A stretch of 64,000 nt of DNA from a virus: the IMG/VR virus record IMGVR_UViG_3300011113_000491, positions 1 to 64,000 of that record, one strand, 5' to 3'. Made by a program: the position numbers and the translations under genes. Each line of letters begins with the position of its first letter. Positions within the stretch are counted from its first letter, which is position 1. This document shows positions 5,055 through 61,398 of this stretch, in pieces. Below the pieces are notes generated by a model. That model was not told the origin of the DNA. It saw only the letters and a list, made by a program, of their open reading frames with translations, and did not search any database.

Positions 5055-5058
<4 letters not shown>

Positions 5059-5783
5059 GGTACATATGTAACACTTCCTGTGTCAGCATCTCCTGTATAT
5101 CCTGTATCTGTAATAAATTCTTCTGTAACATAATTTTTAAAATTAACATCAACTTCTTCAATCGGACCACTAGTGACTGTCTTAATTTTTCCAAACATAT
5201 AAGTTTTTGCAGTAAATGCCAAAGTGGAGATTACACTTCTTCTAGTAGCATATGTTCCTTCAAAATCTTCTGTGGTTTGAACCCCATTTAATTGAAATGG
5301 AACATCTACTTTTGTGTTGAGATCATTAAAATTTATGGTAACAGTAAAATCTGGAGTAAAATTAGGAACTATTTGTTCTATTATTTGAAAATTATCATCT
5401 ATAGTTCTAGTAAAAATATAAACACCAAAATCAACATTATATGGAACTTCAGACCACATTGATGACATTGTATTATTTTCATACTTTATAACTTTATTTA
5501 ACTTATTGAGTTTTCTTGTTGGATCATATAAAATATTTGATATTTGAAATCCTATTACTGGAAGAGTAATCCCTAATTTAGTTCCAGAACTAATACTACT
5601 TGCTTCTGTTAATCTCCTTACAAACTTTTCTTTTGGTCCATATGTAAGAGGAACTCTAATTTTTTCAACTAAAGAATTAGAAGAATCAAATCTAGAGATG
5701 TATATCTCATTTAAAATAGATCCAAATGCAACCACTAATTTTTTGAGTGAACGATTATAATAACTGTCGTTTATTCCAAACAT
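5055..5783 (-). CDS. 15: Tail sheath stabilizer and completion protein, gp15-like
   Basis: 242 aa; T4 gp15 is 272 aa. In T4 it caps the finished tail and stabilises the sheath before head joining. The segments VPLTYGPKEKFVRRL and ISNILYDPTRKLNKLNK, plus the SMWSEVPYNVDFGVYIFTR stretch, are typical of gp15 in marine T4-like phages. Genes 14, 15 and 16 overlap or abut by a few bases. No domain is missing. Confidence 0.92.
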
Positions 5784-6727
5784 TAGTATGCTCCTTCAGA
5801 GAATGGATCCTTTTCAGTAAAATCAAATATAGAGTCCTTCTCTTGTTTAAATGCAATTGCATCATTATCTCTGTCAGGATCATCTGTCTCAGGATTTCTT
5901 GCAACTACTATGGTGGATGTAGTAATTCCTGATAAGTAATATTCAACTCCAGATGTTAGTCCCTTAACACTCTGTCCAGTTGTGCTGTTAAATGTTCCTG
6001 TTATGTCTGCAACATAAACATAATTATATGTTGTTCCATTATAGTAATTGAACTCTATTATAGTTCCATAAGCGGTTGCATTTGCAAAAGTTGCAGTTGC
6101 GCCGGTGACACCATAAACTTGAAATATTTTTTCTCCGGTGTAAAAATCGTAACTTGCTCCAAATGCCGTTGCACCTAGAGTCAACAGTTTTAAATATTCT
6201 TTTCTTTCTGTTTGTGTAGAATCTATATCTAAATTTCCAGTATTGATTGCTTCGTGTGAGTAGTTGAAAACTTCACATGTTAAATTGTAGGTGGTTAGTT
6301 TTCCAAATTGGAAGAATGGTTGTTTGTCCTCAACAAAATTAATTTCAAACAAATATTCCATCATTGGAAAATAAATAAGATCCCCTTCTCGTGGTCTTGT
6401 TATGTTTGTTTCTTTTGAACAAACTTCCTGTTCAAATCTAGTTTTTGATAATACTAAATTTACTCTGTCTGTTAATTGAATACCAAACTTAGTAACAATA
6501 TCTCTCTCTCCTCCAAACTGCTGAACATCACTCAAATACATTTCAATCGGATACCCTTTGCTAAATTTGCTACCATGAGTATCCTCTCCAAGAGTTTGAT
6601 CTAAATTGATATACTGTCTTGGTATATAAACAACATCTCTACCCATTGCTTTGATTGTTTCAATAACAAGGTCATTTAGGAGAGTTTGTTCTCCGACATA
6701 TTCTTTAAAATATGGATTTACTGCCAT
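5783..6727 (-). CDS. 14: Neck protein, gp14-like
   Basis: 314 aa; T4 gp14 is 256 aa. gp13 and gp14 form the neck that closes the filled head and receives the tail. The N-terminal half (VNPYFKEYVGEQTLLNDLV, MGRDVVYIPR, LVLSKTRFEQE) and DLIYFPMMEYLFEINFVEDK match the gp14 family. The C-terminal region contains a TGATATFANATAYGTII-type beta insertion that probably accounts for the extra length. It is placed exactly as in T4, between 13 and 15. Confidence 0.92.
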   Translation of the reverse strand: MAVNPYFKEYVGEQTLLNDLVIETIKAMGRDVVYIPRQYINLDQTLGEDTHGSKFSKGYPIEMYLSDVQQFGGERDIVTKFGIQLTDRVNLVLSKTRFEQEVCSKETNITRPREGDLIYFPMMEYLFEINFVEDKQPFFQFGKLTTYNLTCEVFNYSHEAINTGNLDIDSTQTERKEYLKLLTLGATAFGASYDFYTGEKIFQVYGVTGATATFANATAYGTIIEFNYYNGTTYNYVYVADITGTFNSTTGQSVKGLTSGVEYYLSGITTSTIVVARNPETDDPDRDNDAIAFKQEKDSIFDFTEKDPFSEGAY

Positions 6728-6730
6728 GTT

Positions 6731-7534
6731 TTAACCCATCATGAAATCAACAGGCAATTCATAACTTCTAAGGAATTCATTTTCTATTTCTGCAATTTCC
6801 TGAATCGCTTCTGCATATATTTGAGAACCCTTCATTACTATACCACCAGGCAAAGCAACCCCATCATACTTTGCCATGTTTGCTCCCCATTGTCTCTTTA
6901 TGAGTGCTGTGCTATATTTTTGCAACCATCTATCGTTGTAAATTTCTATAAACTTTTCTGGATCTAAAGTAGCATATGCTTCTACAATTAAATAAGATCC
7001 GGGAGTAACATCGGAGAGAGTGCCGTCGATATATAAACGATTTGTTACTTTACTAAATCTTATTGCTTTTTCTGGTTGAAAGAAATCTTGAATTAATTTA
7101 ATGTATCTTTTTGTAGAGTCATATGTTGCAAGTCCCAATGCAGGAGAACCTGCAAGACCTCTGTTGATACCAAAGTAGTCAGTTAATGCTAATTGATATC
7201 GTATATCAAACATGTCTATAGAAGTAAAGTTTCCAAACTGAAATACTTTTACTACTGAAACTATATCTTTTCCATCTGGACTATCTCCAGTTATACCGTT
7301 AATTGGTCCAATGGAATCAGTTTCGATGTATTTACGATCAATATCAGTTTGTGTTAATTGATATTTAAAATAACCCTTTTCCACTCCATCAAAATGTCTT
7401 TCGGAGAAAAATAACATGGCTTCGTCAATACGGTCTTCACATTGACGATAATCCACATTTATTTGTATTACTGGTTTACCGAGTTTGCGAAGACAGTATT
7501 CTATTAATTCGTCTCTTGAATTTATTGTTGCCAT
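6731..7534 (-). CDS. 13: Neck protein, gp13-like
   Basis: 267 aa, near T4 gp13 (309 aa). The N terminus SRDELIEYCLRKLGKPVI and the segments QCEDRIDEAMLFFSERHFDG and DMFDIRYQLALTDYFG are characteristic of the head-closure gp13 family. The C-terminal LPGGIVMKGSQIYAEA segment is also conserved. A perfect hairpin with a TATAAATA box in its loop lies just upstream (7540-7566), so a late transcript probably begins here and continues through 14-20. The ATG is preceded by GGAG inside the hairpin's downstream arm. Confidence 0.92.
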   Translation of the reverse strand: MATINSRDELIEYCLRKLGKPVIQINVDYRQCEDRIDEAMLFFSERHFDGVEKGYFKYQLTQTDIDRKYIETDSIGPINGITGDSPDGKDIVSVVKVFQFGNFTSIDMFDIRYQLALTDYFGINRGLAGSPALGLATYDSTKRYIKLIQDFFQPEKAIRFSKVTNRLYIDGTLSDVTPGSYLIVEAYATLDPEKFIEIYNDRWLQKYSTALIKRQWGANMAKYDGVALPGGIVMKGSQIYAEAIQEIAEIENEFLRSYELPVDFMMG

Positions 7535-7589: not shown

Positions 7590-8129
7590 TTATGCTTCAG
7601 TTGATTTGTTTTCAGCATTTTCACTTCCACTGTTTTCTTTCTTTGGTGGAGGAGCATTGTGAATAGTTACCTGAACCATATCAATATCCTTATAGTTCAT
7701 GTTTTCAATATAGTATCTACGAGTTATTGGAGAAACTGCTTCATCCGGTGTAGATTGCTTATAATTAGTAAAACCAGGCATTTGTAGAGGACATGCTAGT
7801 TTTGGATAATCTAACTTACTATATTCATCTCCTTCTGCAATCAACCATGTTCCCTTTCGATCTCCACAACCACAACCCCCACAGTAGTGTTTTCCTTCTG
7901 TTGCTGAAGTCTTGAGGTGTTCGCATGGTGGAAGAACTCCACCAGAAGATTGATTACCAAAACAACTTAAAACTCGTAATTGCTTTACTGGTTTTGTTGT
8001 CTTTTCGTTTTTAAGTCCTCTAGACGTTAACGCGGTAGCAAAATTTTGAACCATAGTTAATTTGTTTGCAATTCCACTCTTTTGTTCTATTGTTTCTTTT
8101 CTAAATTCTGGTTGATTTTCATTGTCCAT
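7590..8129 (-). CDS. Small Cys-cluster protein of unknown function, whisker position
   Basis: A 179-aa protein I do not recognise. Residues ~50-120 hold a cluster of cysteines (LSCFG, PPCEHL, YCGGCGCGD, LACPL) that suggests a zinc- or iron-sulphur-binding fold. The flanks are charged and the tail is low-complexity (KKENSGSENAENKSTEA). It sits between the adhesins and gp13, where T4 has the fibritin/whisker gene wac, but it shows no coiled-coil fibritin features. An AGGAG ribosome binding site and a host-type promoter (TTGACG-16-TATAAT) precede it, so it may be transcribed separately from the adhesins. Confidence 0.8.
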   Translation of the reverse strand: MDNENQPEFRKETIEQKSGIANKLTMVQNFATALTSRGLKNEKTTKPVKQLRVLSCFGNQSSGGVLPPCEHLKTSATEGKHYCGGCGCGDRKGTWLIAEGDEYSKLDYPKLACPLQMPGFTNYKQSTPDEAVSPITRRYYIENMNYKDIDMVQVTIHNAPPPKKENSGSENAENKSTEA

Positions 8130-8155: not shown

Positions 8156-8183
8156 ATTATACTACTTAAAAATATTACGTCAA
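8156..8183 (-). promoter_or_regulatory. Host-type sigma70 promoter for the Cys-cluster gene
   Basis: On minus, TTGACG (8178-8183) and TATAAT (8156-8161) are separated by 16 bases. The -35 box lies in the last codons of the giant adhesin gene. The ATG of the next gene (8129) lies 26 bases beyond the -10 box, with AGGAG between. Confidence 0.5.
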
Positions 8184-11100
8184 CTTAATTCTTCTCATAA
8201 ATCTAACATTCCATCGCTTACTACCATATGCAGGAACTGGTATTACTCTACCAAAGTTTGTACCATCAATAGTATCGAAATATATGCTATTTATTAGTTC
8301 ATTACTAAATGCCGTTGATGTTAAGAATACTGAATTTTCTATATCATCTCTATGCATCTTATTTATGTAAGTAAAATAATTAGTAGAATCATCATATATT
8401 TTAGAAGCAAAGAATTTCATTTCTTCCACAGATGGAATATAAAAATCCATAAATCCAAATTTATTTTTGTATTTTACTTTTTCATACAAACGTGAAGAAT
8501 CTGTTTGGATATTGTATGTGTTATAGAAACCATCGTGTAATGAATTTATACTTAATTTCTTATCATCTTCTGTATCCAAATCAAAATATCTTACTTTATT
8601 TGATGTTTCAGAAACTATTAAAACCCATCCCTTATCAAAATCTTTGCTACCTTTTGTAGAAATTTTTGATTTCTTAAAACCTACAGAGTTCAACTCAATT
8701 GGATCTGAACCATATACTAAACTTTGATTTGGTTTATAAACTCCTATGAAATATCCACCCATGAAACGATCACCAAAGGACAGATTAAATGATTTAAATT
8801 TTTGTTCTGTCATTGTTTGAGGAACTAATATGTTATTAGAATCTAAAACTGGATTTGATGGAGCATATTCGCTATCGCACATTCTGTTATCTGAATCATA
8901 TAGAGTTACAAAATGACCATTTCTTTGTTCACATATTCCCTTTAATGTTGGATAGCATTTATAATCGTAACCAGAGTCTGTTTCTATTAATTCAAAACAA
9001 GTTCCAACATTTTCTACTCTCTTCTTGCGCGTGGCAAATCCTATATTACCACCTAGAAGCATCATTGCACTTTCAACTCCGCAATCATGAGGACTTGAAT
9101 TTTGCAATAAAGATTTATTACATAGTGCTCCACTAGTATAAACAGTTTGGTATTTAACTAAAGACGGATCATATGCTAAACCATCACTAGTGTTAACTAT
9201 GTAAATTTGATTTGATACGGCCGTTGACTTAAGTTCACAGTCTCTCTGGGTACACACGTTAGTACATGTAATTCCTAGAGGAATGTTAGATTCGTCATAT
9301 TCCATATAGCAACATGCTCTTGGAATTCTTTTATCAACAAAACATTCTTTTGATGAAGAACCAAGTATTCTCAAACTACTTCCTACTATTTCTCTATTTG
9401 CAACACTTTCATGAATACAATCACCTATATTGGAACAAGATCTATTTGAATAAACAGGAGAACCATCATCATACCACACGCACTGAGGAATTTCTAAAGA
9501 GGTGTCACAATAACTTCCATATGCAGTGTTTGCATTACATACTCCCTTATATGAGGTGTCATTAATTTGTGAAGAACAAACTTGAGCTCCATTTTCATCT
9601 GTTCTATAACAACAATCACGAACTACGCCATCTATGCACCCGCAACAATAATTACAAGATCCCTCTAAATCTGATGCAAATCCAGTTGGACACGTTATAG
9701 TACTACAATTTTGTAAAGGATATGGGGTTCCTCCTGCATATATGCATTCATATGCAATTAAAGAATCTTGACATACTCCACCAATACAACAAGCTCCTTG
9801 ACCACAATTTGTTGTTTGTGGATATGACAAACCAAACGCTTCTTGACAGGTAACACATAATCCTAAATTTGAAGTACCACCTGCTGCTCCACCCTGACAA
9901 CTCCCCTCACCTGGTGCATTTACTGACCAATATTCATAAATTGGAGCTCCATTACAAGTTCCTATTTGTTTTCTCCAATTTGTACCAGATCCTCCAAAAT
10001 CTTCTGCATCTGGAGGTATTCCCAAATCATCAAGAGTTGGTGTTGAACTAGGTACATCCACACACAATAATGTACTAGTTGATGTTGGATTTCCTGAAGT
10101 GCCAGGACACGTTTCTCTAACATTCAATATACATGCAAAATAAGTAGCTTGATAACATGGCTGATCATCACACGATTTTCCTCCATTAAAAATTGCCGTA
10201 GGATCTATATCACATATGCTTTTTGTTGTCATTTGACAAGATCCATCTTCTTTGCAACATGCGCCAAAATTTGCATTGCAATTTACGGATGTACATAAGG
10301 TTCCACACCCATTCCAATATCTGTATGCGAGTGAATCAGTTACACAATCACTTTGTTTTACATTGTTGGTACAAGTAGCTACAGCCGGAATACTAGTTCT
10401 TGAAATACTACAACATGCTCCCAATGCTCCAGGACACGGTGAATTAGTACAATTGTTTGGGGATGTAGTAGATGTTATATTTCCATAGTATCTAAATATT
10501 TTATTTCCACATACACCAGTACCTGTGCAATTAGACTGTAAAACATTATCAGTACAAGTTCCATTTGCATCTCCTTGACAACAAGATCCTGAACAATTGT
10601 TACAAGTTGTAACTTCTTGACCGTTATTTGCAGTACATTCTGACTTCTTCTTTGTAGAACAAGATTGTGTTGTAGGATCACAACACAGAACATTAGGATC
10701 ACAAGTTACTTGACTACAAGTTTTTCCTACATTAAAGGTTCCTGTACAATTTCCTGGCAACACATAAGAACATCCGCCAGTAGATAGACAACATGCTCCT
10801 GCTGCACCTTCACATGCATCTGCTACACCATCCGCATCGAGATCGGTGCATTTTGAACCATAACCTTGAAAAGTTCCTGAACACGAGTTCTTTTGTATTA
10901 CAGTACATGTTGTTGTACTACAACATGCACCACGACAAGGATATGCTGCTTGACCTGTTGTGGGACATGCAGCGGCTGAGGTAAGATAAATTCCACCCCA
11001 AAAATTTGTGCCATTATCACATGTTCCATTCGCACAACAATCTTGTTTATTTTCATAAACACAACCAGTGGGTTTACAGCATCTTCCAGAACAAGTTGAT

Positions 11101-14100
11101 TCAGTACAAGTAGTATTATCATTATATGAGTTATTGGAGCCAGCTGCAGCGGCTGAACAATTTTGTGAAGCAGATTTTCCGTCCGATGTATTGTATACTT
11201 GTAGACAATTTTGTTGTGCTTGAATGCAGCAAGCACCCTTACAAACTCCAACTCCATTAACTATGCATGGAACTAAATTTCCTGAATATCGCCCAGAGCA
11301 GGTTTGATTGTATGCAACTTGAGTGCATGCTCCTGTCGAGCTACAACACGCACCTTTGCAATTATTTGCACATGTACCAAGACTCCAAACACCGTTTGGA
11401 ATTTGAGAACACGCCGAGGCCGTAATATTATCGGTACAACTTCCAGCACCCGACGATCCGGAAACACAACATGATCCTGTTGGTTCTGGACATCCAGCAG
11501 AAGTACAAGTAGTAAATCCTTGTTTAAATCTAGACAAGGGACATGTATTTCCTAAGTCTTGTTTTACTACAAAATTATCAGAACAACCAAGTTGATTACC
11601 ATTATTGCATACAGTAGGAGTAGAACAGCAACAATACCCTCCTTTGCAATATGGAACTCCATCTGGATTTGTACATGGAGTGTTGTAATGGAAAACATCG
11701 CCTGGTAACAGTGCCCCTCTTTGTTTTTGAGAACAATTTCCAGAGTTACATGCGGCACCGAGATCACATGGAGAATCTACTCCAGACTGACCGCAAACTT
11801 GATTGTAGAAGAATGTTCCGTCAGTACAATCTATTCTTCTAACTCTTTCGCAGGTTCCATCAAATTTACAACATGCACCCCAATCACATTTTGAATTTGC
11901 CTCGGCCGGAGAATAGTACTGTTCTAAATATGCTGCTCCTTTACACTCTGATAATTCATCAGTAGTTCCTACTCCTGGATTATTAAATTCAGTATTAGTA
12001 CAACATAATCCTATTCCACATCTATCGGGATAAACATTACCAGATATAGTAATACTACAATCAGAAACATTTGGTATTGTTCTTTTTCCAGAAATTTCTG
12101 CACAACTTGCATTGGAAGTTATACCTCTACAAATTAAATCATTAGGAGATGGCGTTGTATCATCTAATGCACAGCACAATCTATTTACACACGGTTGAGC
12201 TCCAGATTGGGTGTAAATATTATTATTTGATGCGTTCCATACAAACTCTAGAGTTTGACATGTGGCATCTTTTTTCCATATAGAACTTTGAATTACCTCT
12301 CCACTATATTGTGTATTTACATACCCATCACACTGTGCTTTGGTTATATTGCTTAAACAGAATGGTCCGCTTGAAATACCAGATCTTAAGTCGTTTACTG
12401 GATCTGTAGTATTATATAAACAACATCTACCTCTTTCTTCTTCCCCGCAAGGATGTGGGTTATCACTGCATCGATTTTCTGGGTATGATCTCCAAGTTCC
12501 AGCATCACACTCTTGTTCTAATTTTAAATCTCCGGGTAGGCAATCTCCTCCAGATCCAGTGCAAGGACACTGACCAAGAGCAGCACAGCAGAATCCTTTT
12601 TTACATTGATTTGGTAAGCACTCTGCTTGACCATCTCCTATATTTTCATACCATTTAGAATTGGGTTGTAAAGAACATTGATATTGTGTCAAAATACCAT
12701 AACACTCTTCACTTTGATCATTACAACAAAGTCGTTTTGGGAAGTCGTCTGGGCAATATTGCTCAGATATATCTGGTTCACAATCATAATTGCAAACACA
12801 ATCTGGATTTCTAAATCCGTTACAACCACACGATCCTACTTGTCTAACCTCATTCCATCCCTGTTGAATTGTAGTTTTCCACGATATATTATCATCTTCA
12901 TAAATGTTTCCGGGCAATTGACAACATCTATTTTGCGAGGCCGTGGGCGTGGCCGTGGGAGTTTTAACATATACGGTTCCTACATTTTTGACTAAATTAT
13001 AGTTGAATGGTAAATTTGCATCATCATTGAACGTAAAAAGATCTCTATATCTAATGTCTGTTTGACTGCTCGCCGTGGATGGATTTGCTACTTTACAGCT
13101 TTGACAGTATGATATTTTTGTATTTTTAGGAAGAGTTCCTGGATTTGTATTTAATTCTATTCCGGGATATAGGTAAGAATTATTCGCCACTTCAGCACAA
13201 ATATCACAATCATATTTTTGTAATCTTAATTGGCTTGTAGATGTACCACTATCAGCATTATAAACTAGAATATCTTTACATTCAAAATTAGATTTTATAA
13301 ATCTAGCATAAAGTCCGCTCCCCGAAGTATAGGTTCCATCTTTATTTTGACAATATTTTTTAGTAACCTTTGATCCATTACATGAAGAATTGCATGTTTG
13401 TGGACCATCTGGTGATAAACAGTTTAATCCGTTAAATGTGCAGCATACCCCATATCCTGCTTTTTCCTCACTTACATTAGTTGCTGAAGAATAGTACGGA
13501 TTACCTCCGGCCCAGGAGGCGAGCGCAGCGCCGGCGCACCCACCTTCTGGGTAGAAAAACAGTAAAACATCACCATCGTCTGGATTATAATATTGAGAAG
13601 ATCCAGAATTTACAGTATAAGTTCCATCAGTGGTGTTCCAATCCAAGAACACTAAATTACATCCACTTCCATCTCCTTTACATGATACTGCTTGAGAGCA
13701 TATACACTCGTTTGCAGCTGCCCCTGACAAAGTTGAACATGGAGTTCCATCTGGTTTAGTAGTCGTTGCTTTATCGAATGTTTGCCATAATGTATCGCAA
13801 TTTGGATCTATTACATCAAAATTACAATTCGGACATTCATTTGAAGGCTGACCAGAACTATCCTTCGCAACTTGTAAAAATGGTCCAACACATTCATCTA
13901 ATGGAATATTATTTTGACAACTGTTGGTAAAATGATCACAACATGCATACAATGGTTCACATATATTTGGATTTGTTCCTGATCCTTCATCTGTACATGG
14001 AAGAGTATTAAATGTTCGATTGCATGTAGTATATTCATTATCTGGTATGTTTGTATAGGTATCAGTAGATAAATCATAATCATAAAGACCAGTGTTCTTT

Positions 14101-16061
14101 TGATATACTGTGGTGCATGTGGAATTTCTACAACAAGAACCTTCAACATATGGATCTTGTGGCTGACAATTTACAGAAGAACAATTCGTTGCATTGGGTA
14201 AGAAAGTATCATTTCCACAGAACGCTTGATTTACTTGAGCTCCATTGTCTCCATAGCATTGTCCTACTGTTGTATCACAACACAATCCCAACAATTCAGG
14301 TTCACTTCCATCACATCCTATTCCACTATAAATTGGATTTGTTTGTGCAGAACCTTCACATGTGATATCAAATGGACCATACCATCTCTTACAGCATCTA
14401 TTTCCTGCTTCATTTTGAATTGCACAATTAGTACATCCAGTTGGACATTCTTGTTGCTCATATACTGCATAAGTCATTTGAAGACACTGACAAGTTCCAG
14501 CGTCATTAATCTCAGAATCAGTACCACAAGGAGATATACATGCATTTCCTATAAAATTACAAACATTATCACACGCTTCGCATGTTGCATTAACTTGTGA
14601 ATTGCCACAATACTTATTATTAAAATAATTGCTAACTTTATTAAGTTGATCTTGTAATGTATCGTTTTCTAAATTAGGTATAGCAGTTCTTGATAATTTT
14701 TCAACAACTTCGTCCCATCGTCTAAAAGTACAATCAGGACAACAATAACTTTCGTCCACAACAAATCTACAATCTTTGAAACTTGGACTACAGCACACAC
14801 CAAATGGAACTTCTGTGTATGGACATGATGTACTAGTAGAATCACTTGGTTTTATTACATATTTTTTAAATGCAGTATTTTGAGTAGTAGTAGTACAATT
14901 AATCGAATCACTAGGAACATCTGTGCATGTAAAAGTACCAGAACCATCTGTATAAGATGTTATTGATAAAGTTATGCTTGTGCTGTCTTGTTGTATTTCA
15001 AAAATACATCCTTCACCTTGACACAAAGAAGAATCAGCAGCACATGTTTTATTTGCAAAAACTGGTCCTGCCTGCGTTACATCTCCGTCGTAATTTGCTT
15101 GATATTGAGAAATACCATATCGTGTTCCAGTGCAATTTTGTTGTGTGGTTACACTGAAATTTCCTTGGTCATTGCATATTACAGGAAATCCTACAATGGC
15201 AGCAGCTGCACAGTTTCCATATAATTTAAATGTTTCTCCAGTTCTACACAACTGTGAACCTATAGTTTGCTCTGTATCATTTGGATTTAACCCATCCGTA
15301 TATACGCTGTAACAAGCACCAGTAGAATCTGTACATGTACCATAAACATCCGAATTAACACAAGTTACACAATTTCCTCCTTCTTGCCAAGTAGAATCTG
15401 GATCTAATTGTGTGCATTGAGATTGAGTTAAATCTGTTCTACAACAAGTACAGTCACCACTTTCATTGCAATTATAGCAACATCTACCAATTGGATCTTC
15501 TGGTTCATTACATTCTGGTAAAGTAGGATTATCTTTGCAAGGATCTGGTTCTTCTGTTACATTTGTAGTGTCTAATCCATAACAATAATTTCTTATTGTT
15601 TGTGAGTCTCCAGTTGTAGGACACGATCCCTGTGTCCAAATTCCACCAATTCTAGAACACTCACATTGTTCTACATTATCTTTTAACCCTACATTGAAAT
15701 ATAGAGGTATTGTTGTGTCCGATGATGTTTTTTCGCATCTATCTCCAGAATCAATTGGTGTTAAATTTTGATCGTTTATGAAATCTTGATAATTTTGACT
15801 TTCCTGAGCATACTTACATGCACAGCAACACCCTCTTTCGGTTGCCTGTTCACATGTAAAATTATCAATATCTGCTCCGGGGTAAAAAGTTCTAGTTACA
15901 ACGCTCAAAATCCCTTGATTTGAATAGCATTCATTCGCGGTAGTTTCGTATTTAGAATATTCTTGGGTGTTTGAATTATATTGGCAGCAAACACCCATTG
16001 ATTTTAATTCATCTTTAAAGTCAATTGCGGATTGTAGTCTAGATCTAAATTGTATTGTCAT
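8175..16061 (-). CDS. Giant cysteine-rich tail adhesin with C-terminal DUF1566-like domain
   Basis: The largest protein in the window (2628 aa). From about residue 24 to 2330 it is a chain of disulfide-type modules. The recurring pattern is G(A/S/R)CC-x(3-6)-G-x-C-x(6-9)-C-x(10-16)-C, with Cys close to one residue in seven in the central part I counted. Examples are GACCLSTGGCSYVLPGNC and GACCKEDGSCQMTTKSIC. I know this module style from planctomycete secreted proteins. The last ~250 residues change character and resemble DUF1566 (MDFYIPSVEEMKFFA, FLTSTAF, VRFMRRIKL). It is likely a tail-tip or tail-fibre adhesin, from its place between gp8 and gp13. No signal peptide is visible. A late box precedes the ATG, with GAGGAC as ribosome binding site. 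Confidence 0.8.
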   Translation of the reverse strand: MTIQFRSRLQSAIDFKDELKSMGVCCQYNSNTQEYSKYETTANECYSNQGILSVVTRTFYPGADIDNFTCEQATERGCCCACKYAQESQNYQDFINDQNLTPIDSGDRCEKTSSDTTIPLYFNVGLKDNVEQCECSRIGGIWTQGSCPTTGDSQTIRNYCYGLDTTNVTEEPDPCKDNPTLPECNEPEDPIGRCCYNCNESGDCTCCRTDLTQSQCTQLDPDSTWQEGGNCVTCVNSDVYGTCTDSTGACYSVYTDGLNPNDTEQTIGSQLCRTGETFKLYGNCAAAAIVGFPVICNDQGNFSVTTQQNCTGTRYGISQYQANYDGDVTQAGPVFANKTCAADSSLCQGEGCIFEIQQDSTSITLSITSYTDGSGTFTCTDVPSDSINCTTTTQNTAFKKYVIKPSDSTSTSCPYTEVPFGVCCSPSFKDCRFVVDESYCCPDCTFRRWDEVVEKLSRTAIPNLENDTLQDQLNKVSNYFNNKYCGNSQVNATCEACDNVCNFIGNACISPCGTDSEINDAGTCQCLQMTYAVYEQQECPTGCTNCAIQNEAGNRCCKRWYGPFDITCEGSAQTNPIYSGIGCDGSEPELLGLCCDTTVGQCYGDNGAQVNQAFCGNDTFLPNATNCSSVNCQPQDPYVEGSCCRNSTCTTVYQKNTGLYDYDLSTDTYTNIPDNEYTTCNRTFNTLPCTDEGSGTNPNICEPLYACCDHFTNSCQNNIPLDECVGPFLQVAKDSSGQPSNECPNCNFDVIDPNCDTLWQTFDKATTTKPDGTPCSTLSGAAANECICSQAVSCKGDGSGCNLVFLDWNTTDGTYTVNSGSSQYYNPDDGDVLLFFYPEGGCAGAALASWAGGNPYYSSATNVSEEKAGYGVCCTFNGLNCLSPDGPQTCNSSCNGSKVTKKYCQNKDGTYTSGSGLYARFIKSNFECKDILVYNADSGTSTSQLRLQKYDCDICAEVANNSYLYPGIELNTNPGTLPKNTKISYCQSCKVANPSTASSQTDIRYRDLFTFNDDANLPFNYNLVKNVGTVYVKTPTATPTASQNRCCQLPGNIYEDDNISWKTTIQQGWNEVRQVGSCGCNGFRNPDCVCNYDCEPDISEQYCPDDFPKRLCCNDQSEECYGILTQYQCSLQPNSKWYENIGDGQAECLPNQCKKGFCCAALGQCPCTGSGGDCLPGDLKLEQECDAGTWRSYPENRCSDNPHPCGEEERGRCCLYNTTDPVNDLRSGISSGPFCLSNITKAQCDGYVNTQYSGEVIQSSIWKKDATCQTLEFVWNASNNNIYTQSGAQPCVNRLCCALDDTTPSPNDLICRGITSNASCAEISGKRTIPNVSDCSITISGNVYPDRCGIGLCCTNTEFNNPGVGTTDELSECKGAAYLEQYYSPAEANSKCDWGACCKFDGTCERVRRIDCTDGTFFYNQVCGQSGVDSPCDLGAACNSGNCSQKQRGALLPGDVFHYNTPCTNPDGVPYCKGGYCCCSTPTVCNNGNQLGCSDNFVVKQDLGNTCPLSRFKQGFTTCTSAGCPEPTGSCCVSGSSGAGSCTDNITASACSQIPNGVWSLGTCANNCKGACCSSTGACTQVAYNQTCSGRYSGNLVPCIVNGVGVCKGACCIQAQQNCLQVYNTSDGKSASQNCSAAAAGSNNSYNDNTTCTESTCSGRCCKPTGCVYENKQDCCANGTCDNGTNFWGGIYLTSAAACPTTGQAAYPCRGACCSTTTCTVIQKNSCSGTFQGYGSKCTDLDADGVADACEGAAGACCLSTGGCSYVLPGNCTGTFNVGKTCSQVTCDPNVLCCDPTTQSCSTKKKSECTANNGQEVTTCNNCSGSCCQGDANGTCTDNVLQSNCTGTGVCGNKIFRYYGNITSTTSPNNCTNSPCPGALGACCSISRTSIPAVATCTNNVKQSDCVTDSLAYRYWNGCGTLCTSVNCNANFGACCKEDGSCQMTTKSICDIDPTAIFNGGKSCDDQPCYQATYFACILNVRETCPGTSGNPTSTSTLLCVDVPSSTPTLDDLGIPPDAEDFGGSGTNWRKQIGTCNGAPIYEYWSVNAPGEGSCQGGAAGGTSNLGLCVTCQEAFGLSYPQTTNCGQGACCIGGVCQDSLIAYECIYAGGTPYPLQNCSTITCPTGFASDLEGSCNYCCGCIDGVVRDCCYRTDENGAQVCSSQINDTSYKGVCNANTAYGSYCDTSLEIPQCVWYDDGSPVYSNRSCSNIGDCIHESVANREIVGSSLRILGSSSKECFVDKRIPRACCYMEYDESNIPLGITCTNVCTQRDCELKSTAVSNQIYIVNTSDGLAYDPSLVKYQTVYTSGALCNKSLLQNSSPHDCGVESAMMLLGGNIGFATRKKRVENVGTCFELIETDSGYDYKCYPTLKGICEQRNGHFVTLYDSDNRMCDSEYAPSNPVLDSNNILVPQTMTEQKFKSFNLSFGDRFMGGYFIGVYKPNQSLVYGSDPIELNSVGFKKSKISTKGSKDFDKGWVLIVSETSNKVRYFDLDTEDDKKLSINSLHDGFYNTYNIQTDSSRLYEKVKYKNKFGFMDFYIPSVEEMKFFASKIYDDSTNYFTYINKMHRDDIENSVFLTSTAFSNELINSIYFDTIDGTNFGRVIPVPAYGSKRWNVRFMRRIKLT

Positions 16062-16099: not shown

Positions 16100-19000
16100 T
16101 TATGCATTGGATTTTATGGGTTTTGGTTTTGCATTTACACCTAAAAGTTCACAATCACAGTTTTCATTAGTACCACAATTATAACAATTTTTCCAAATGC
16201 CGTTTTTGTTTCTACATTCACCACAAGTATATTTGCTGCAAGTATATTTTCCTGAACTATTCTTAATGCAGCAACATCCTGGAACTTTCATATCTTTAGT
16301 ACATGCAGAACAATCTGTACTGGAAGAACAATCTTGACCTCTACTCCATTTTATACCTGCTTTTACCTTCATGCATGTATTTTCATCGGTTACATCACAT
16401 GCTATACAATTTGAATAACCAGTAACTGTGTCATATTTTCTATAACAGCATCTTCCTAACTCTTCGTTACTTGAAACGTATGAATTTATTTCTCCATTTG
16501 GTCCGGTGCAATCTTCTAATTTATTTACTGAGTATGAATTTAAATCATCATTTATAATTGGAACACAATCTGAAACAAACATTCCGGTGTCTGTTTTTAT
16601 TGTAATCTTTTTATAAACTATATTATGATTTAATTTTAAAGTATCTACCACATTTGCTGCACCGCGTGAACTGCTACCAATTGGCGAACTTCTAGGTGGT
16701 AAGAAATATACACCAGGAGGTGCAGGATTCAATGGATCTTGATCTGACTGATTTGTTCTTTTATCACTCCAGCAATCTCCGCCGTCCCAGTTGTATTTTG
16801 GACAGTTCCATGCTGGCGTACAAGCACCACCACCTAGCTCGCCCGGCAAAGGATTACACACACCTAAGCAATTTAAAACTTCCCCATAAATACACACGCA
16901 ATCAGGAGCAGGTTGTTGTGGCGCATTGGGTCCACAACATTGACCAAATCCATAGTTAAATTGTTCACAATTAAAATTACCACAGCTAGAACCAGTCTTA
17001 GCATTTTTTATACTTCCATTCAAACAAGGAAATGGTGGCTGACCGTAACCAAAATCGGCGGGATCTCCATCTGTATTCTTCCAACAGTCATAAGAATCCT
17101 CTTCCCTTACACATAAACCATCACAATCCCTGATGAATCCCTGGCTAGGACAACCCTCTGGACTGGTTCTAACACAAGTATCACATTTTTCTGGAACAGA
17201 TGCATTTTCAAATCTAGGTGGCAAAACAGATGGACACAAACATGTTGGAGCAGTCGGACAATCACCAGCCTTAAAATTAACAGGAACAAAAGGTTCCTTT
17301 GTAGATGGTATCCAAGGTGCCCCTGGTGTTTTAGGATTTGTTCTATATCCTCCATCATTTTCTCTATCTGCTGGAATTCTCCAATCTTGTTGTTTACCTG
17401 TAGTTGGATTAATATAGTTAGGATCAGAAATCCATATAGACATACATCTGGTATTGCAGTTATTTGCAAAGTAAACAAGTCTATTAAAACACTCTGGTTT
17501 ACAGGAGTCTGAACAAGGCGGTTGCGAGTACTTTCCAGATGCAAGGGCTTTACCTTGAGGAGAAGTCGGAGGAGCACATGGTGCTATTTTTTCTATAGCT
17601 TGTCTATCTAAAACTAATTTATAAGGTGGATCCACCACATCTCCGTCTACCCAATTTCCAGATTTGTCTTTACATTTGCAACTAGCATTTCTACAACATT
17701 CGCTTCCAGAACTACAATCAGATAAAGAACAAATTCTTATTACAACTGGAGGACAACCATTACAGGGACAAGTAGCAGCATAATCCTCTTCGTTGCTTAA
17801 ATTAGGATTTGTACTTGGACTGAATAATTCATAACCCCCAGTGCACTTTTCCAAACAACATGCCTTGGGATCAAATTTACAGAAGTCTCCTCCTCCTCCG
17901 CTTCCGCCTCCTCCGCCTCCTCCGCCTCCTCCTCCTGACGGTGGTCCAGAAGGTGGTCCAGAAGGTGGTCCAGAGGGTGGTCCAGAAGGTGGTCCAGAGG
18001 GTGGTCCAGAAGGTGGTCCTGGCGGCCCCGGAGGTGGCCCCGGAGGTCCTGGCGGCCGCGGCGGCGGCCCAGGTGGCCGCGGTGGCGGCGGTGGTGGACA
18101 ATCATCATCCGGATCGCATGGTGGTGGCGGCCCCGGAGGTGGCCCCGGAGGTGGCCCCGGAGGTGGCCCCGGAGGTGGCCCCGGAGGTGGCCCCGGAGGT
18201 GGCCCCGGAGGTGGTCCTGGTGGTGGCCCGGGAGGTGGTCCTGGTGGTGGTGGTTGACAGTCTTCTCCTGGCGGACAGTCAGGACTACCAACACAGTTGC
18301 AATTCACATCATCACATGTGGTATCTTCGCCCATGAAAACACCACCTAAAGTTTCACACGAAACTGTTACATCATCTGAAAGATTTCCAAAAAGATATGG
18401 TGGATAAATTCCTTTACAGACACCATTAACGCAACATGCACCAGGTTTGACATTTGCGTTACAACAAACTTCTTGTGGAGAGATTATTGTATCTACAACT
18501 GCTCCTGATGCATCTTTATATTCTCTATTTCTTGCTTTACTGGGTAAAGCAACACCTTTTAGAATTTCCTCGCACTGTATTCTAGTAGTTCCTGAAATAT
18601 AAACTCCATTAACACAGCAAATAGTATATGGAGAAACTTGATCTGTTTCATCATCAATTATAACAGGACCTTCTATATTTTCATCTAATGATTTGTTCAA
18701 TGCACCTTTATAACGATTACATGGATCAGTGCAAAATCTTCCAGTTTCTCTTGGTTGTGCCCAATTTGCTCCGTCTGGATTGTTTGGATATGTTTGACAT
18801 GTTATCCCCGGAAAGAAAACTCCACCAAAGTAAAAACATTCATCTACTGTTGAATTTTCTAAACATTTACCAGCAGAACAACAAGCACCAATCTGGTTAC
18901 ATGTTTCGTTACAAGATAGATGGGGATTGAATTGACCAGATAATTTTGTACAAAACTCTCTAGAAACATAATCCACACATCTAGGTAAACTTTGATCTAG

Positions 19001-20089
19001 ATTTACACCTGAATTTGGAACAAGGTTACCGAGATTTTCATACGGAACACCATTTGGATATAGTTCTTTAATTCTATCAAAATCTAGAGTATTTGCAAAA
19101 TTATACGTCACATAGTTTGTATTAATTTGTATTCCTGTGTTAGTTTGTTCAAAACAACAAGATCCAAGTAATGATGTGACCTGACACTGGTTTGGATCAT
19201 TTAAATCTAATCCTCGCGCAGTTACTCTGGCTAACCAACTTTCTCCTGCATCATATGAAAACAAATTAACTACAGATTTGCCACATGTTAAATAATTTTC
19301 ATTACCTTCAAAATATACATTAGAGGGAAATTTCCAAACATCATCGGATGTAAATATAAAAGTTACAGATATTATTTGATTATTTTTAAAATCTCCAGTT
19401 ATTTCTGAAATACCAATAGGAGTTTTTAGTACATATACTCCACCAGCATCTACATTTATCTGTATACCTCCGGTTGTTCCTACACTGAATCCTTCTAATT
19501 CTCCATTAAGTCCTACTAGTTGATTTCTTTCTACAGGACCAATATATTTAATTTTTGCCTTTTCGCTCAAATAAGTATTACTAAAATTAAGCAATCCAGA
19601 GTAAGAAGAATCTGTTGCAACTTTAGTGCTACTTCCTACTCCCGGTTCTGAAATATACATTATGGTATCGTTGTATACCGTTCCTAAAGTACCAACACCC
19701 TCTTCGTATGTTGAATATAATGTTATATTATTAGAATCTTGTTTAACTTCTAAAGAACCAGTTGCAGTTAATCCTCTAAAGAACAATTCACCATTTACTA
19801 ACTCTTTAAAGAATTCTTGTCCAGTTCCAACATTTTTTGCAGATGTTACATTTTCCTGAACCGAATTACCTTTGAAGTTTCCTGTCACTCTTCTGGTACT
19901 TCCGTCAGTTAATGTAAAGGTTATTCCAGTTCCATCTGAAACGGCAGAAACAACATAAACTCCTCGCTCACCAGTTGCACCAGTTGAACCACTGATACCA
20001 GTGTTTCCTGTGTTTCCAGTTGCACCAGTTGGTCCGGTTGGACCTGTTATACCTGCTATTATAATTTGTGTGATTGAACTACTACCCAT
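16100..20089 (-). CDS. Tail adhesin: collagen-like N terminus, Cys-rich modules, Pro/Gly stalk
   Basis: 1329 aa, first in transcription order after the two other collagen-started genes. After MGSSSITQIIIAG it has a short Gly-x-Thr collagen-like run (GPTGPTGATGNTG, ~16-40). A beta-rich region to ~320 follows, then Cys modules. Residues ~611-736 are a low-complexity stalk: repeats of PPPG, then GPPS, then poly-Gly. Further Cys modules run to the end (GCCCIKNSSG, CGECRNKNG). It lacks the DUF1566 domain of its neighbours. The N terminus is paralogous to the proteins at 20092 and 23313. It is probably a trimeric fibre displaying disulfide-rich heads. The exact role in the tail is inferred from position only. 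Confidence 0.8.
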   Translation of the reverse strand: MGSSSITQIIIAGITGPTGPTGATGNTGNTGISGSTGATGERGVYVVSAVSDGTGITFTLTDGSTRRVTGNFKGNSVQENVTSAKNVGTGQEFFKELVNGELFFRGLTATGSLEVKQDSNNITLYSTYEEGVGTLGTVYNDTIMYISEPGVGSSTKVATDSSYSGLLNFSNTYLSEKAKIKYIGPVERNQLVGLNGELEGFSVGTTGGIQINVDAGGVYVLKTPIGISEITGDFKNNQIISVTFIFTSDDVWKFPSNVYFEGNENYLTCGKSVVNLFSYDAGESWLARVTARGLDLNDPNQCQVTSLLGSCCFEQTNTGIQINTNYVTYNFANTLDFDRIKELYPNGVPYENLGNLVPNSGVNLDQSLPRCVDYVSREFCTKLSGQFNPHLSCNETCNQIGACCSAGKCLENSTVDECFYFGGVFFPGITCQTYPNNPDGANWAQPRETGRFCTDPCNRYKGALNKSLDENIEGPVIIDDETDQVSPYTICCVNGVYISGTTRIQCEEILKGVALPSKARNREYKDASGAVVDTIISPQEVCCNANVKPGACCVNGVCKGIYPPYLFGNLSDDVTVSCETLGGVFMGEDTTCDDVNCNCVGSPDCPPGEDCQPPPPGPPPGPPPGPPPGPPPGPPPGPPPGPPPGPPPGPPPGPPPPCDPDDDCPPPPPPRPPGPPPRPPGPPGPPPGPPGPPSGPPSGPPSGPPSGPPSGPPSGPPSGGGGGGGGGGGSGGGGDFCKFDPKACCLEKCTGGYELFSPSTNPNLSNEEDYAATCPCNGCPPVVIRICSLSDCSSGSECCRNASCKCKDKSGNWVDGDVVDPPYKLVLDRQAIEKIAPCAPPTSPQGKALASGKYSQPPCSDSCKPECFNRLVYFANNCNTRCMSIWISDPNYINPTTGKQQDWRIPADRENDGGYRTNPKTPGAPWIPSTKEPFVPVNFKAGDCPTAPTCLCPSVLPPRFENASVPEKCDTCVRTSPEGCPSQGFIRDCDGLCVREEDSYDCWKNTDGDPADFGYGQPPFPCLNGSIKNAKTGSSCGNFNCEQFNYGFGQCCGPNAPQQPAPDCVCIYGEVLNCLGVCNPLPGELGGGACTPAWNCPKYNWDGGDCWSDKRTNQSDQDPLNPAPPGVYFLPPRSSPIGSSSRGAANVVDTLKLNHNIVYKKITIKTDTGMFVSDCVPIINDDLNSYSVNKLEDCTGPNGEINSYVSSNEELGRCCYRKYDTVTGYSNCIACDVTDENTCMKVKAGIKWSRGQDCSSSTDCSACTKDMKVPGCCCIKNSSGKYTCSKYTCGECRNKNGIWKNCYNCGTNENCDCELLGVNAKPKPIKSNA
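17939..18250 (-). repeat. 12-bp tandem repeats encoding PPPG and GPPS stalk
   Basis: Inside the adhesin gene at 16100-20089. On plus the unit GGTGGCCCCGGA repeats around 18127-18210, and GGTGGTCCAGAA/G repeats around 17939-18018. The block is far more GC-rich than the rest of the window. Four-residue units (not three) mean a polyproline-II-like stalk rather than a collagen triple helix. Confidence 0.85.
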
Positions 20090-20091
20090 AA

Positions 20092-23000
20092 TTAATTTCC
20101 ATTAAAACCAAGACAAGACTTACATTTATCAAATTCGTAATCATTGTATATCGTATCTGTATTTATATCCCAAGAGTTGTATACCAATGGTATTCTTCTA
20201 ACTGGTCTAAATCTTGCCGCTTTTGAGTCTCTTCTCACAGTATATTGTTTTCCTGCTGCGCCAGAACTAAAATCTTGAATCGTCATCCCTACTCCATTAC
20301 AAATTTGTAAGGATAAATCTAGTGCTTCATCTTCTGTGAGTCCCATTTGATCCTTGTAATATCTACTTCTTTCATTTATTAATTCTTGTGAATCCTCTGG
20401 GTTTCTGTTTGGTTCTATTTTTTGAACAACATATAAATCTTTTTCTTTATGATTATTTGTATTCCAATCTACGATTCTACAGACAGAAGTTGAAGTCCAA
20501 TAAGGATTTGTTGATATTACTTGACCTCCAGTTCCCTCTATTGAACTATTAATTTTTTCCAAATTTCTAGCAATATGATTCATTTCTACTATACTTGGAA
20601 TGTACCAATCACTATATCCTAAATAATTTTGTTCATTTAATGACGATACTTTTCTTATTACGGTTCCCTCTGGGTTTCTATTTTCCCACATCTGACTGTA
20701 ATAATACTTAAACGTATTGATGTCTGTTTCTATTTCATTTTTATTTGCACCACCAGGCCATTGATTTATATTTTGTGAGACAAATCTTCTATAAGCATTG
20801 ATGTCTTTTCCGTCTCCATCGTCATCTCTAAACCAATACTCTGGGTTATTTTTTGATGTCGCATCGTGTAGTCTTGTATTCATTAAACCATCTATAGAAG
20901 AAGTTGATATTGGTTCTAAGAAATACTTACCATTAAAGTTTTCGCTTCCTGGCTCGACTCTAGACTCAAACATTTCAGACCACTTAAACATATATTCTGA
21001 ACTAGATCCTATTTCATAATATGCATCTTCTGGTGCAACAATTAACGCCCATAGAACTTGAACTCTGTTTTGTTCATAAAATTTACTATAAAGATATTTT
21101 GCTAATACCGCGCCAGGAGTCGGCGCTCCCATGATTTCTGTTACTATATTAGATCTGGTAGTATCAAATGCGTATGGACCATATTCTTTATTAAATTCGT
21201 CAGTAAAAGAGAAAAATGCAGGATCTGGCCATGTTATGGTTCTAATCGTTCCATTTAAATTTGCAGTAATTGATGTATAAAGTTGTTGTATTACAGGAAC
21301 ACCAACTTTGAACAAGCATTTTGCTCCAAAAGATACATCAGTTATTTGTAGAGGATATGTTCTAGAAATATAAACTAAAGAACCTGATGTATTTGGCACA
21401 CCATATTCATCCGATGTATATTTTTTACATCTTTTGAATTTCCATAATTTAAAATCTGCTCCTTGCTGATCTCCTCTGGGTCTACACATACAATCAACTG
21501 GTTCTCCATATGCAGTTGCTGGCTCCTGAAAAGTATCACAATTGTTTGGATTACCTATTATTGCTACTAAATGTCCACCCTGTATTTTTTTACCGGGAGT
21601 AAAACATGGATCATTGAAATTTGCTCTACACAAATTAGATTCTAAAGAATCTCCAAAGTATGGATTATTAAAACTAATACCACAACAAGAAACTTCAAAA
21701 CACTTTTTACCAATACCCATGAATGTTCCTTGATTTCTTGCACAAGTTTCTGGTAATTGTTCATCTACACAATATGTCCCGTCTTGTTGTGTATAATAAC
21801 AACATGGTCCAGAAAGAGCCCTAATTTCCCCCAACCCAACAGCAGCAGTACAACAATTTTCGTTTCCCCATTCAGCACAAGACAAACGAGCAGAAAACTC
21901 AGCATCTGGTATCAGGTTACATTCCACATCAGTAAGATCTAAACATTTTCCTTTTACACAACATGAACCATAACTAGGACATGCTCGTTCTTTTCCAACA
22001 CAAGAAAAAACTTCTTCTCCTGCAACTATACTATTACCACATCTTTGATTTGGATAAAACACTCCATTATATTTTAAACACAAATCATATGTTGTATTTC
22101 TACATAGATTGTTTAAATTTGAACTAGTAAAAAATGTATTCAGTGAGTTTATATTTCCAAGACAGCAAGCACCTTCAGGAAAACAATCACCATTGCCCAC
22201 TCTTGCTAAACATGAACTATTAGAAAATTGACCACCTATTGCAATACAATAACTCTTATGCATATAGTCTATACATTTTCTGTCTTCTGGATTTTCACTT
22301 GAACATAAACAACAAGATCCTATATCTAATGAATCAACAGTGGTTGCTAAATTGGTTGATGTTATTCCTGCCTCCGCAGCGTCTAACATTTGATCATTAG
22401 AAATTTTATTCCACGTTAATTGTGGAAATGTGTAATTTAGAGAGACAGCACCAGTTACTCCAAAATATAAACGATCTTGTATTTTTATATCTGTTTGATA
22501 TTCTGTTTGTGATCCTGCTAAATTTGTATATGTTCTTGGAGTATACTGTAAGATATAATTTCCTGAAACTGTAGTTGTATTTATTTTTGTTTGATATGAT
22601 CCAGTTCCTCCTGTAGCACTTAAAATATTAGAAGTAAATGGGGCAGTTACAAAAGAATTAAATACATAATTGAAATTATTAGGATTGAGCCAACTTCTTT
22701 GAGCATTTATTGGAGCAATTATAATTTTTGTAGAGGGATCGTAATAGGTTTCTCTCGCACCTCTACCCTTTCCAGATTCGTATTGATAAATTATTTCTCC
22801 AACATTTCCAATTGGTCTAAATTCTGTTACTTCATCAAAAACCTTTCCAACAATTGAAACATAATTTGAATTAGTAGTAACAGAATCAAATGCAGCAGTA
22901 TTGCTAACAAAGTTAATTTTCTTAAATTTTATAACTTCATCACTATCTGTTATCAATACTTGATTTGCATTACGTTCTCCAGAATTATCACTATATAAAA

Positions 23001-23313
23001 TACTAAAGGTATCATCTGTTGTTTGTTGACCTTTTAATAAAACTATAGTATTGGATTCTGGATCAAATGCTCCATCTGAACCAGTAAATCCTAAATTGAA
23101 AGTAGTTCCATCGGTTAGTGTAAATCTGGCAACACCATTAGATACAAAGGTTATTGTGGATATGCTAGTTCCTGTGTTTCCTTTGTTGCCAGGAGCACTA
23201 TTTCCTGTAGCACCAGTGGAACCAGTAGATCCAGTGGGACCGGTATTTCCAGTCATACCTCCAGTTGATCCAATTATATCTTTGATTATTATTCTTGAAC
23301 TACCGATAATCAT
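20092..23313 (-). CDS. Tail adhesin: collagen-like N terminus, Cys modules, DUF1566-like domain
   Basis: 1073 aa. It begins MIIGSSRIIIKDIIGSTGG and a collagen-like run (TGNTGPTGSTGSTGATGN), then a segment with FTLTDGT shared with its neighbours. Cys modules run from ~340 to ~560 (GACCLGN, GSCCVKGKCLDLTDVEC, GPCCYY). The C-terminal half resembles DUF1566 (GYSDWYIPSIVEMNHIARN, YWTSTSVC, ARFRPVRRI) and ends in a short Cys tail (KCKSCLGFNGN). It is separated by two bases from the gene after it and touches the one before it, so the block is one operon. A host-binding role is inferred. Confidence 0.8.
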   Translation of the reverse strand: MIIGSSRIIIKDIIGSTGGMTGNTGPTGSTGSTGATGNSAPGNKGNTGTSISTITFVSNGVARFTLTDGTTFNLGFTGSDGAFDPESNTIVLLKGQQTTDDTFSILYSDNSGERNANQVLITDSDEVIKFKKINFVSNTAAFDSVTTNSNYVSIVGKVFDEVTEFRPIGNVGEIIYQYESGKGRGARETYYDPSTKIIIAPINAQRSWLNPNNFNYVFNSFVTAPFTSNILSATGGTGSYQTKINTTTVSGNYILQYTPRTYTNLAGSQTEYQTDIKIQDRLYFGVTGAVSLNYTFPQLTWNKISNDQMLDAAEAGITSTNLATTVDSLDIGSCCLCSSENPEDRKCIDYMHKSYCIAIGGQFSNSSCLARVGNGDCFPEGACCLGNINSLNTFFTSSNLNNLCRNTTYDLCLKYNGVFYPNQRCGNSIVAGEEVFSCVGKERACPSYGSCCVKGKCLDLTDVECNLIPDAEFSARLSCAEWGNENCCTAAVGLGEIRALSGPCCYYTQQDGTYCVDEQLPETCARNQGTFMGIGKKCFEVSCCGISFNNPYFGDSLESNLCRANFNDPCFTPGKKIQGGHLVAIIGNPNNCDTFQEPATAYGEPVDCMCRPRGDQQGADFKLWKFKRCKKYTSDEYGVPNTSGSLVYISRTYPLQITDVSFGAKCLFKVGVPVIQQLYTSITANLNGTIRTITWPDPAFFSFTDEFNKEYGPYAFDTTRSNIVTEIMGAPTPGAVLAKYLYSKFYEQNRVQVLWALIVAPEDAYYEIGSSSEYMFKWSEMFESRVEPGSENFNGKYFLEPISTSSIDGLMNTRLHDATSKNNPEYWFRDDDGDGKDINAYRRFVSQNINQWPGGANKNEIETDINTFKYYYSQMWENRNPEGTVIRKVSSLNEQNYLGYSDWYIPSIVEMNHIARNLEKINSSIEGTGGQVISTNPYWTSTSVCRIVDWNTNNHKEKDLYVVQKIEPNRNPEDSQELINERSRYYKDQMGLTEDEALDLSLQICNGVGMTIQDFSSGAAGKQYTVRRDSKAARFRPVRRIPLVYNSWDINTDTIYNDYEFDKCKSCLGFNGN

Positions 23314-34450: not shown

Positions 34451-34462
34451 TTTTACACCAAA

Positions 34463-54681: not shown

Positions 54682-54698
54682 AAAAACATCCTTTATAA

Positions 54699-55062
54699 TG
54701 GAGGCCGGGGGAGTCGAACCCCCGTGTACCCTATACTTATGTATAAGCCCTACATGATTAGTTTCTTTTCATAAACAATTTCGTAAGGTAAGAAACAAAC
54801 TTACGAATTGCTTTGACTGTTAATTTCGAATCGTTTACCAGTCACTCACGATTCTATCAGATTTGAGAAGTCAGGAATTATCTGAGTCACTTCCTGTACC
54901 CTCTTGACGGTCCTAGTGAATTAAGGATCGACTGTTTCTCAAGCAGCCATTGCAAATGCTCTAGTGTTGGCATTTGTGGTTTGGTTGTTTTTAACGAAGC
55001 CATCAACCATCTTCGTCATGCTCTTCTACATTTGTCTAGAATATCGAATCCGATTGGCCCCC
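54699..55062 (-). ncRNA. ssrA: Transfer-messenger RNA (tmRNA)
   Basis: A 364-nt RNA on minus. The tRNA-like ends pair as GGGGGCC (5') with GGCCTCC (3', one G-U), discriminator A. The T-arm is GGGGG-TTCGACT-CCCCC, and GGATTCGA follows the 5' acceptor as in all tmRNAs. The tag reading frame lies at ~54942-54995 and encodes NNQTTNANTRAFAMAA before a TGA (54939-54941), ending in a hydrophobic degradation tag (AMAA, like ALAA). The region after it can form pseudoknot-like stems. CCA is not encoded. The gene upstream stops one base before the tmRNA begins, so the RNA is probably cut from a longer transcript. tmRNA rescues stalled ribosomes and tags their peptides for proteolysis. Confidence 0.93.
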
Positions 55063-61184: not shown

Positions 61185-61398
61185 TAGATTTCTTTCCACT
61201 ATTCTTTCCACCCATATGTGTTTCAATATGGAGTTGGAGAGACTTCATCTTCTTTGCAAGAGTTTTTCTATCTGCCTTGTCAAGAAGATACTGCTCATAA
61301 GTATACACTGCCTGCGTTGCAAGTTCAATCAGTTCGATGACATATTCATCATCATGTGCGTTTTGTTTAGTTCTCCCGAACAACTTCAATTTCCTCAA
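61168..61398 (-). CDS. Small helical hypothetical protein
   Basis: 76 aa. It has VIELIELATQAVYTYEQYLLDKADRKTLAKKMKSLQLHIETH as two helices. It overlaps the 61367 gene at its start and guaC at its end. No family recognised. Confidence 0.55.
   Translation of the reverse strand: MRKLKLFGRTKQNAHDDEYVIELIELATQAVYTYEQYLLDKADRKTLAKKMKSLQLHIETHMGGKNSGKKSNGNET

Follow-up and report, generated by a model that had tools for sequence, protein, structure and literature searches.

For what would a phage use a protein of 2628 residues, 251 of them cysteines? The question is raised by gene P0001 in the first 64 kb (the window) of the 123,465-bp IMG/VR virus record IMGVR_UViG_3300011113_000491. Its open reading frame (ORF), called earlier from the letters alone (the sequence-only reading), was recovered intact on the minus strand and lies among the tail-fibre genes of a T4-like myovirus, with the baseplate wedge on one side and neck genes on the other. 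We propose, with a probability of about 0.62, that P0001 is the tail adhesin of an uncultivated T4-like phage with a probable Phycisphaerae-type host, and that it consists of a disulfide-stapled stalk and a carbohydrate-binding, Lcl_C-type head. Its parts are as follows (Cys, cysteine; aa, amino acids):

8175..16061, minus strand: gene P0001 for a putative tail adhesin of Cys modules (2628 aa, 251 Cys, ATG start)
15582..16061, minus strand: conserved N-terminal part (MTIQFRSR...) with the first GxCC unit (residues 1-160)
9207..15992, minus strand: array of GxCC disulfide-type units (residues 24-2285), with Cys-poor inserts, e.g. at about 740-870 and 900-1040
10113..11879, minus strand: segment of the array (residues 1395-1983) with four of the five units to which a planctomycete-built profile gives more than 8 bits
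8178..9350, minus strand: conserved head region (residues 2238-2628), the last part of which (about 2428-2628) is a Cys-free Lcl_C/DUF1566-like domain

Cysteine makes up 9.6% of P0001. The 34 CC dipeptides are a mild enrichment given this composition (23.8 ± 4.1 in 2000 shuffles), but the ordered motif is not explained by it: G-x-CC starts number 22 versus 2.4 expected (maximum 8 in 2000 shuffles), and the pattern G-x-CC-x(2-9)-C-x(6-11)-C occurs 14 times versus 0.7 (maximum 5), which is far beyond chance. The sequence-only reading had dozens of modules covering almost the whole protein. The repeated motif stands; the canonical units, however, number about 14 to 20 (approximately 14 with full spacing), the others are degenerate, and the C-terminus is a lectin-like domain. 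The final Cys is residue 2395, leaving 233 C-terminal residues free of Cys. The first unit has four Cys and lacks the third and sixth (C3 and C6). A secretion signal was not apparent, the N-terminus MTIQFRSRLQSAIDFKDELKSMG being without a hydrophobic segment as judged by eye.

The head was modelled from residues 2229-2628, with predicted local distance difference test (pLDDT) values mostly of 80-95 past the first approximately 120 residues. Foldseek matched the model to DUF1566 phage proteins (probability 1.00, E 5e-5) and to the C-terminal domain of Legionella Lcl (Lcl-CTD; 8q4e) with a probability of 0.99, a template modelling (TM) score of 0.64 by target, and E 0.03; the head is thus predicted to fold like Lcl-CTD, a C-type-lectin-like trimer which binds glycosaminoglycans (PMC11162425). 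At the sequence level the P0001 head had no Pfam match, i.e. it falls below the gathering threshold of Lcl_C (PF07603), and two of 13 family members matched Lcl_C at E <= 0.01 (best 4.2e-05). With the cut-off at 34.9, the Lcl_C scores of two collagen-like fibre genes nearby were 27.3 and 18.7 bits. Like Lcl, these neighbours begin with a collagen-like region and end in an Lcl_C-like one, whereas P0001 has an array of putative disulfide modules where Lcl has its collagen-like repeat; Lcl-CTD itself is devoid of disulfides (PMC11162425). A profile of the head found no bacterial homologue in the four genomes searched. Identity to the closest members of the clade is 29-45% for the head, as compared to 76-91% for the neck proteins, and such fast divergence would be typical of receptor-binding parts.

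Searches with P0001 itself, by tblastn in INPHARED and by peptide patterns in IMG/VR, gave no match, the latter because P0001 diverges too fast. Relatives were reached instead via the neck protein and then, in IMG/VR, via the gene that directly follows the adhesin gene:

7590..8129, minus strand: 179-aa gene with six invariant Cys (LSCFG...CEHLK...CGGCGCGD...CPL)

The neck protein query led to 52 IMG/VR loci, and in those with enough upstream DNA, the most distant excepted, a Cys-rich protein of about 400-550 aa precedes the 179-aa gene. Most members of this conserved family of approximately 500 residues start with MSIQFRSR and a GxCC unit and end in RLFRRIxL or similar. P0001 aligns with the family at both ends (residues 1-160, the N-terminal part common to its members, and 2240-2628), and therefore is the same protein with some 2100 residues of modules added; judged from these alignments, it is a five-fold expansion of the protein of approximately 500 aa that is usual in its clade. 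The closest relatives with long sequence (L012, L015, L016, L018, L023) carry the array on the gene before, and their head gene begins with MxGACC, so that array and head have been either fused or divided between genes; P0001 residues of about 700-1216 match the array-bearing preceding gene of close relatives at 26-29% identity. More distant relatives (L052, L055, L059; neck identity 34-40%) have no Cys-rich proteins at that place.

The 179-aa gene has at least 566 relatives in IMG/VR, and a Cys-rich ORF lies directly upstream of it in all 52 loci with a usable upstream ORF. Complete ORFs at this place comprise 483-889 aa, which makes P0001 an extreme. The conserved adhesin form occurs in hundreds of IMG/VR contigs and is absent from INPHARED phages, Pfam, PHROGs and NCBIfam; judged by this distribution, P0001 is a member of a widespread, undescribed phage protein family. 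In INPHARED, neither P0001 and P0002, the fibre gene upstream of it (50,697 records for these two), nor a planctomycete array or a short core protein had a match; the Cys-rich fibre of one relative gave weak cyanophage matches only, covering 4-8% of that fibre. No homologue of the 179-aa protein was found in INPHARED, Pfam or PHROGs, nor, by profile, in 150 Phycisphaerae genomes. It is a possible assembly partner or factor of the adhesin. We found no paper on Cys-rich tail fibres of planctomycete phages, and the adhesin together with the 179-aa gene would provide a recognizable marker for such phages, which are scarce among isolates.

The locus is a T4-like tail cluster. Downstream of P0001 on the minus strand follow the 179-aa gene, the neck proteins, the sheath stabilizer, terminase and sheath genes; upstream are collagen-like fibre genes and the baseplate wedge genes:

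5055..7534, minus strand: neck and tail-completion genes (phrog_211; T4 neck protein, Pfam PF11649; sheath stabilizer, phrog_227)
16100..20089, minus strand: upstream fibre gene P0002 (1329 aa, 91 Cys or 6.8%; collagen-like (GxTGxTG) N-terminus, proline-rich stretch, GxCC units)
20092..23313, minus strand: fibre gene (1073 aa, 3.6% Cys; collagen-like N-terminus, Lcl_C match under the Pfam cut-off)
23313..26108, minus strand: fibre gene (931 aa, 3.7% Cys; collagen-like N-terminus, weak Lcl_C match)
32705..37344, minus strand: baseplate wedge genes, on the far side of the fibre cassette

The closest cultured neck proteins are those of cyanophages (33-36% identity). Placement between baseplate and neck genes and the T4-type neck protein are shared with the short and long tail fibres of T4-like phages and cyanophages; unlike these, P0001 and P0002 have no sequence homologue in INPHARED. 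Cassette position and the homologous Lcl_C-type head both agree with the assignment as tail adhesin made in the sequence-only reading. DUF1566 domains are known targets of diversity-generating retroelements, and P0001 was for this reason considered as such a target; the idea was dropped, as no reverse transcriptase was found (RVT_1 had no match in the 123-kb record, which may be incomplete). P0002 has, at residues of about 617-735, an extended stretch of prolines and glycines (PPGPPPGPP...) that gives way to poly-glycine.

In the proposed adhesin, the conserved N-terminal segment would attach P0001 to the tail itself or to the collagen-like fibres next to it. About 30 GxCC units with two to four disulfides each, mostly three, would form a compact, protease-resistant stalk, which would present the Lcl_C-type, lectin-like and probably trimeric C-terminal head, and the head would bind a glycan or the envelope of the host. 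The chain, devoid of a signal peptide, would be made reduced in the cytoplasm and oxidized on or after release from the cell, while the unit may have been acquired from the protein repertoire of the host, or exchanged with it, and then amplified. The locus thereby makes it testable how virion proteins with hundreds of Cys mature after assembly in a reducing cytoplasm. Disulfides are established in particles of Agrobacterium phage Milano, a myophage with a disulfide-linked tail (PMC10811340), and a reducing cytoplasm therefore does not preclude them in mature particles. Structural proteins of Milano contain 2.1% Cys and its links connect ordinary tail subunits (PMC10811340), whereas the disulfides of P0001 would sit within dedicated repeat units, with up to 9.6% Cys. 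The great rarity in phages that the sequence-only reading assumed did not hold, given this precedent, the hundreds of contigs mentioned above and proteins with up to 15.9% Cys on other viral contigs.

Proteins of 1200-1900 aa with 11-16% Cys and 15-20 GxCC starts are encoded on five other viral contigs (L315, L274, L292, L277, L296); the N-termini of some are unlike those of the P0001 family (MRT.KTCCCCGD).

Where does the module come from? Planctomycete secreted proteins had been named as a source of the same module, and this was borne out. An exact-pattern scan for the six-Cys spacing covered 84,980 species genomes, the matches listed being a sample; among the 80 loci listed, 63 bear planctomycete names, mostly of Phycisphaerae, and five more stem from one bin. 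Read by eye, many of the listed genes encode proteins that begin with a hydrophobic signal, carry units in tandem and end in a dockerin-like part. The bacterial unit has the form GxCC-x(4-6)-C-x(7-8)-C-x3-GG-...-C-x4-C. A 30-unit profile was found in 30 of 150 genomes of the Phycisphaerae class, 6 of 119 phylum-wide, one of 198 Bacteroidota (the seed genome) and none of 199 Actinomycetota, and neither Pfam nor NCBIfam yielded a family for the module. When a profile built from the bacterial loci alone was run against P0001, the best unit reached 28.7 bits (residues 1933-1983) and five units exceeded 8 bits, the fifth (11.6 bits) at residues 2089-2137; 40 shuffles of P0001, of which half left the Cys in place, scored 10.1 bits at best. 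The module profile (A2) also matches related phages of the clade. On these profile scores the module of P0001 is the same as that of the Phycisphaerae secreted proteins, and an undescribed, putative disulfide module common to both is thereby defined. Host and phage proteins have the unit and its tandem arrangement in common; they differ in that the host proteins possess signal peptides and often dockerin-like C-termini, both missing from the phage proteins, and in that the phage units are more degenerate.

The type of host is suggested by another gene of the window:

55816..56904, minus strand: gene for a planctomycete-type protein resembling type IV pilins (N_methyl), a host marker

A Phycisphaerae genome encodes a homologue of its product, 54% identical over the full length (E 1e-102), and 99 Bacteroidota genomes gave no match. 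On this basis a planctomycete host of the Phycisphaerae type, in line with the sequence-only reading, is likely. Beyond the window, record positions 85307-85927 (L005:3307-3927, minus strand) encode a small secreted-looking protein without family match which ends in VPAPGCLALLSLSVFLNKRRRI; we take this ending (VPAPG...RRRI) to resemble a PEP-CTERM sorting signal.

With the same unit present in tandem arrays of 7-28 on signal-peptide-bearing proteins of Phycisphaerae, and a Phycisphaerae host being probable, the units themselves might engage the envelope, binding to or exchanging disulfides with host surface proteins of the same module in a homotypic docking or crosslinking, as the sequence-only reading had surmised. 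However, the units of the P0001 array are highly divergent from one another and from the host units, and the adhesin of many phages in the clade has just one to three units, so that a long array is not required for infection in general. We consider this form of mimicry unlikely, and prefer the stalk-and-head adhesin.

Less probable still is that the similarity between phage and planctomycete modules arose by convergence of Cys-rich repeats instead of common ancestry. The units are short (about 40 aa) and most phage units individually score under 8 bits, but shuffles preserving composition, and likewise those preserving Cys positions, fall short of the real scores, and phage and bacterial units also agree at non-Cys positions, namely GA before CC, G before C3, and GG after C4.

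Do the cysteines form disulfides, or do they bind metal? Bacterial GxCC-bounded units contain exactly six Cys in 271 of 291 cases, and those of phages contain 4 to 8, an even number in 38 of 56. Parity was counted on GxCC-bounded units because loose xxCC boundaries are uninformative (60 even, 56 odd). Of 43 distinct N-terminal phage units, 38 are without C3 and have CC, C4 and C5 only, which means that C6 is lost along with C3; phage units retaining C3 (L291, L324) retain C6, and one 4-Cys bacterial unit exhibits the same joint loss. The CxxC motif is depleted in P0001 (14 observed versus 26 expected). Because of the six Cys per unit, the co-loss of C3 and C6 and the depletion of CxxC, disulfides are favoured over zinc, which was also the expectation of the sequence-only reading. 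Zinc or iron-sulfur sites folding in the reducing cytoplasm would fit the cytoplasmic synthesis without signal peptide, and the CGGCGC motif of the adjacent 179-aa protein could bind metal; yet units with CC pairs and no conserved His, the secretion of the module in planctomycetes, and the iRhom match described below argue for disulfides, and we judge metal sites to be very improbable. Zinc sites in particular were discarded on the depletion of CxxC knuckles and the joint loss of C3 and C6.

Compared with the Protein Data Bank (PDB), the module profile matched only the luminal domains of human iRhom1 and iRhom2 (8snl, 9xy4) below E 1; the match spans 37 columns with identical Cys spacing and is weak (E 0.012-0.027). 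A three-module model (mean pLDDT 85) likewise gave only two PDB matches in Foldseek, iRhom2 and iRhom1, at E about 5, which is not significant alone and, because Foldseek also uses sequence, not independent of the profile match. We treat the likeness as a weak lead and not as a result. Eight disulfides staple the iRhom homology domain, the structure of which has been called unprecedented (PMC11248996; PMC10148629). Unlike the long arrays discussed here, it is a single domain of an animal membrane pseudoprotease. If true, the similarity would tie an animal signalling domain regarded as unprecedented to a bacterial and viral module. A hevein-like (chitin-binding) reading of the CC-x3-G-x-C spacing was abandoned, as no hevein appeared in the Pfam or PDB profile searches; the sole, weak Pfam match of 30 units was CBM_19 (E 0.68, one unit).

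A wider interpretation, which we regard as possible but doubtful, would have a large, uncultivated T4-like branch of planctomycete phages using adhesins made of an undescribed module of about 40 residues and three disulfides, common to the secreted proteome of the host and ancestral kin of the iRhom luminal domain; maturation and docking would depend on oxidation, and the 179-aa Cys protein would act as assembly factor.

That P0001 is no virion part but is secreted or displayed by the infected cell, e.g. for superinfection exclusion, would suit the secreted host relatives of the module and is most improbable, since the protein lacks a signal peptide, keeps a fixed tail-cluster position in relatives, and is joined to an Lcl_C-type head that also occurs on the adjoining collagen-like fibre genes.

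Several points weigh against the proposed adhesin. Its place in the virion is suggested by gene position, and the case for disulfides is indirect: the Cys total of P0001 is odd (251), the parity signal of the phage units is modest, and no thioredoxin that might help oxidation was found in the record. The module reaches the cut-off in only 30 of the 150 Phycisphaerae genomes and is also present in some other phyla. The pilin gene resides in a stretch of higher GC content, and another viral contig (L334) carries a copy with 92% DNA and 97% protein identity whose flanks share no DNA with those of the window; it may therefore be mobile and an indirect mark of the host, and is probably a mobile auxiliary gene.

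Some further features of the record were noted. The phage encodes a transfer-messenger RNA at positions 54696-55062 (Rfam RF00023, 119 bits) with the tag ANTRAFAMAA, and an IMP dehydrogenase/GMP reductase-family gene at positions 60177-61226 (Pfam PF00478, E 6e-75). Record positions of about 66000-82000 (L004) have a GC content of 47-60%, as compared to approximately 36% for the record, and represent either an acquired island or an assembly chimera.

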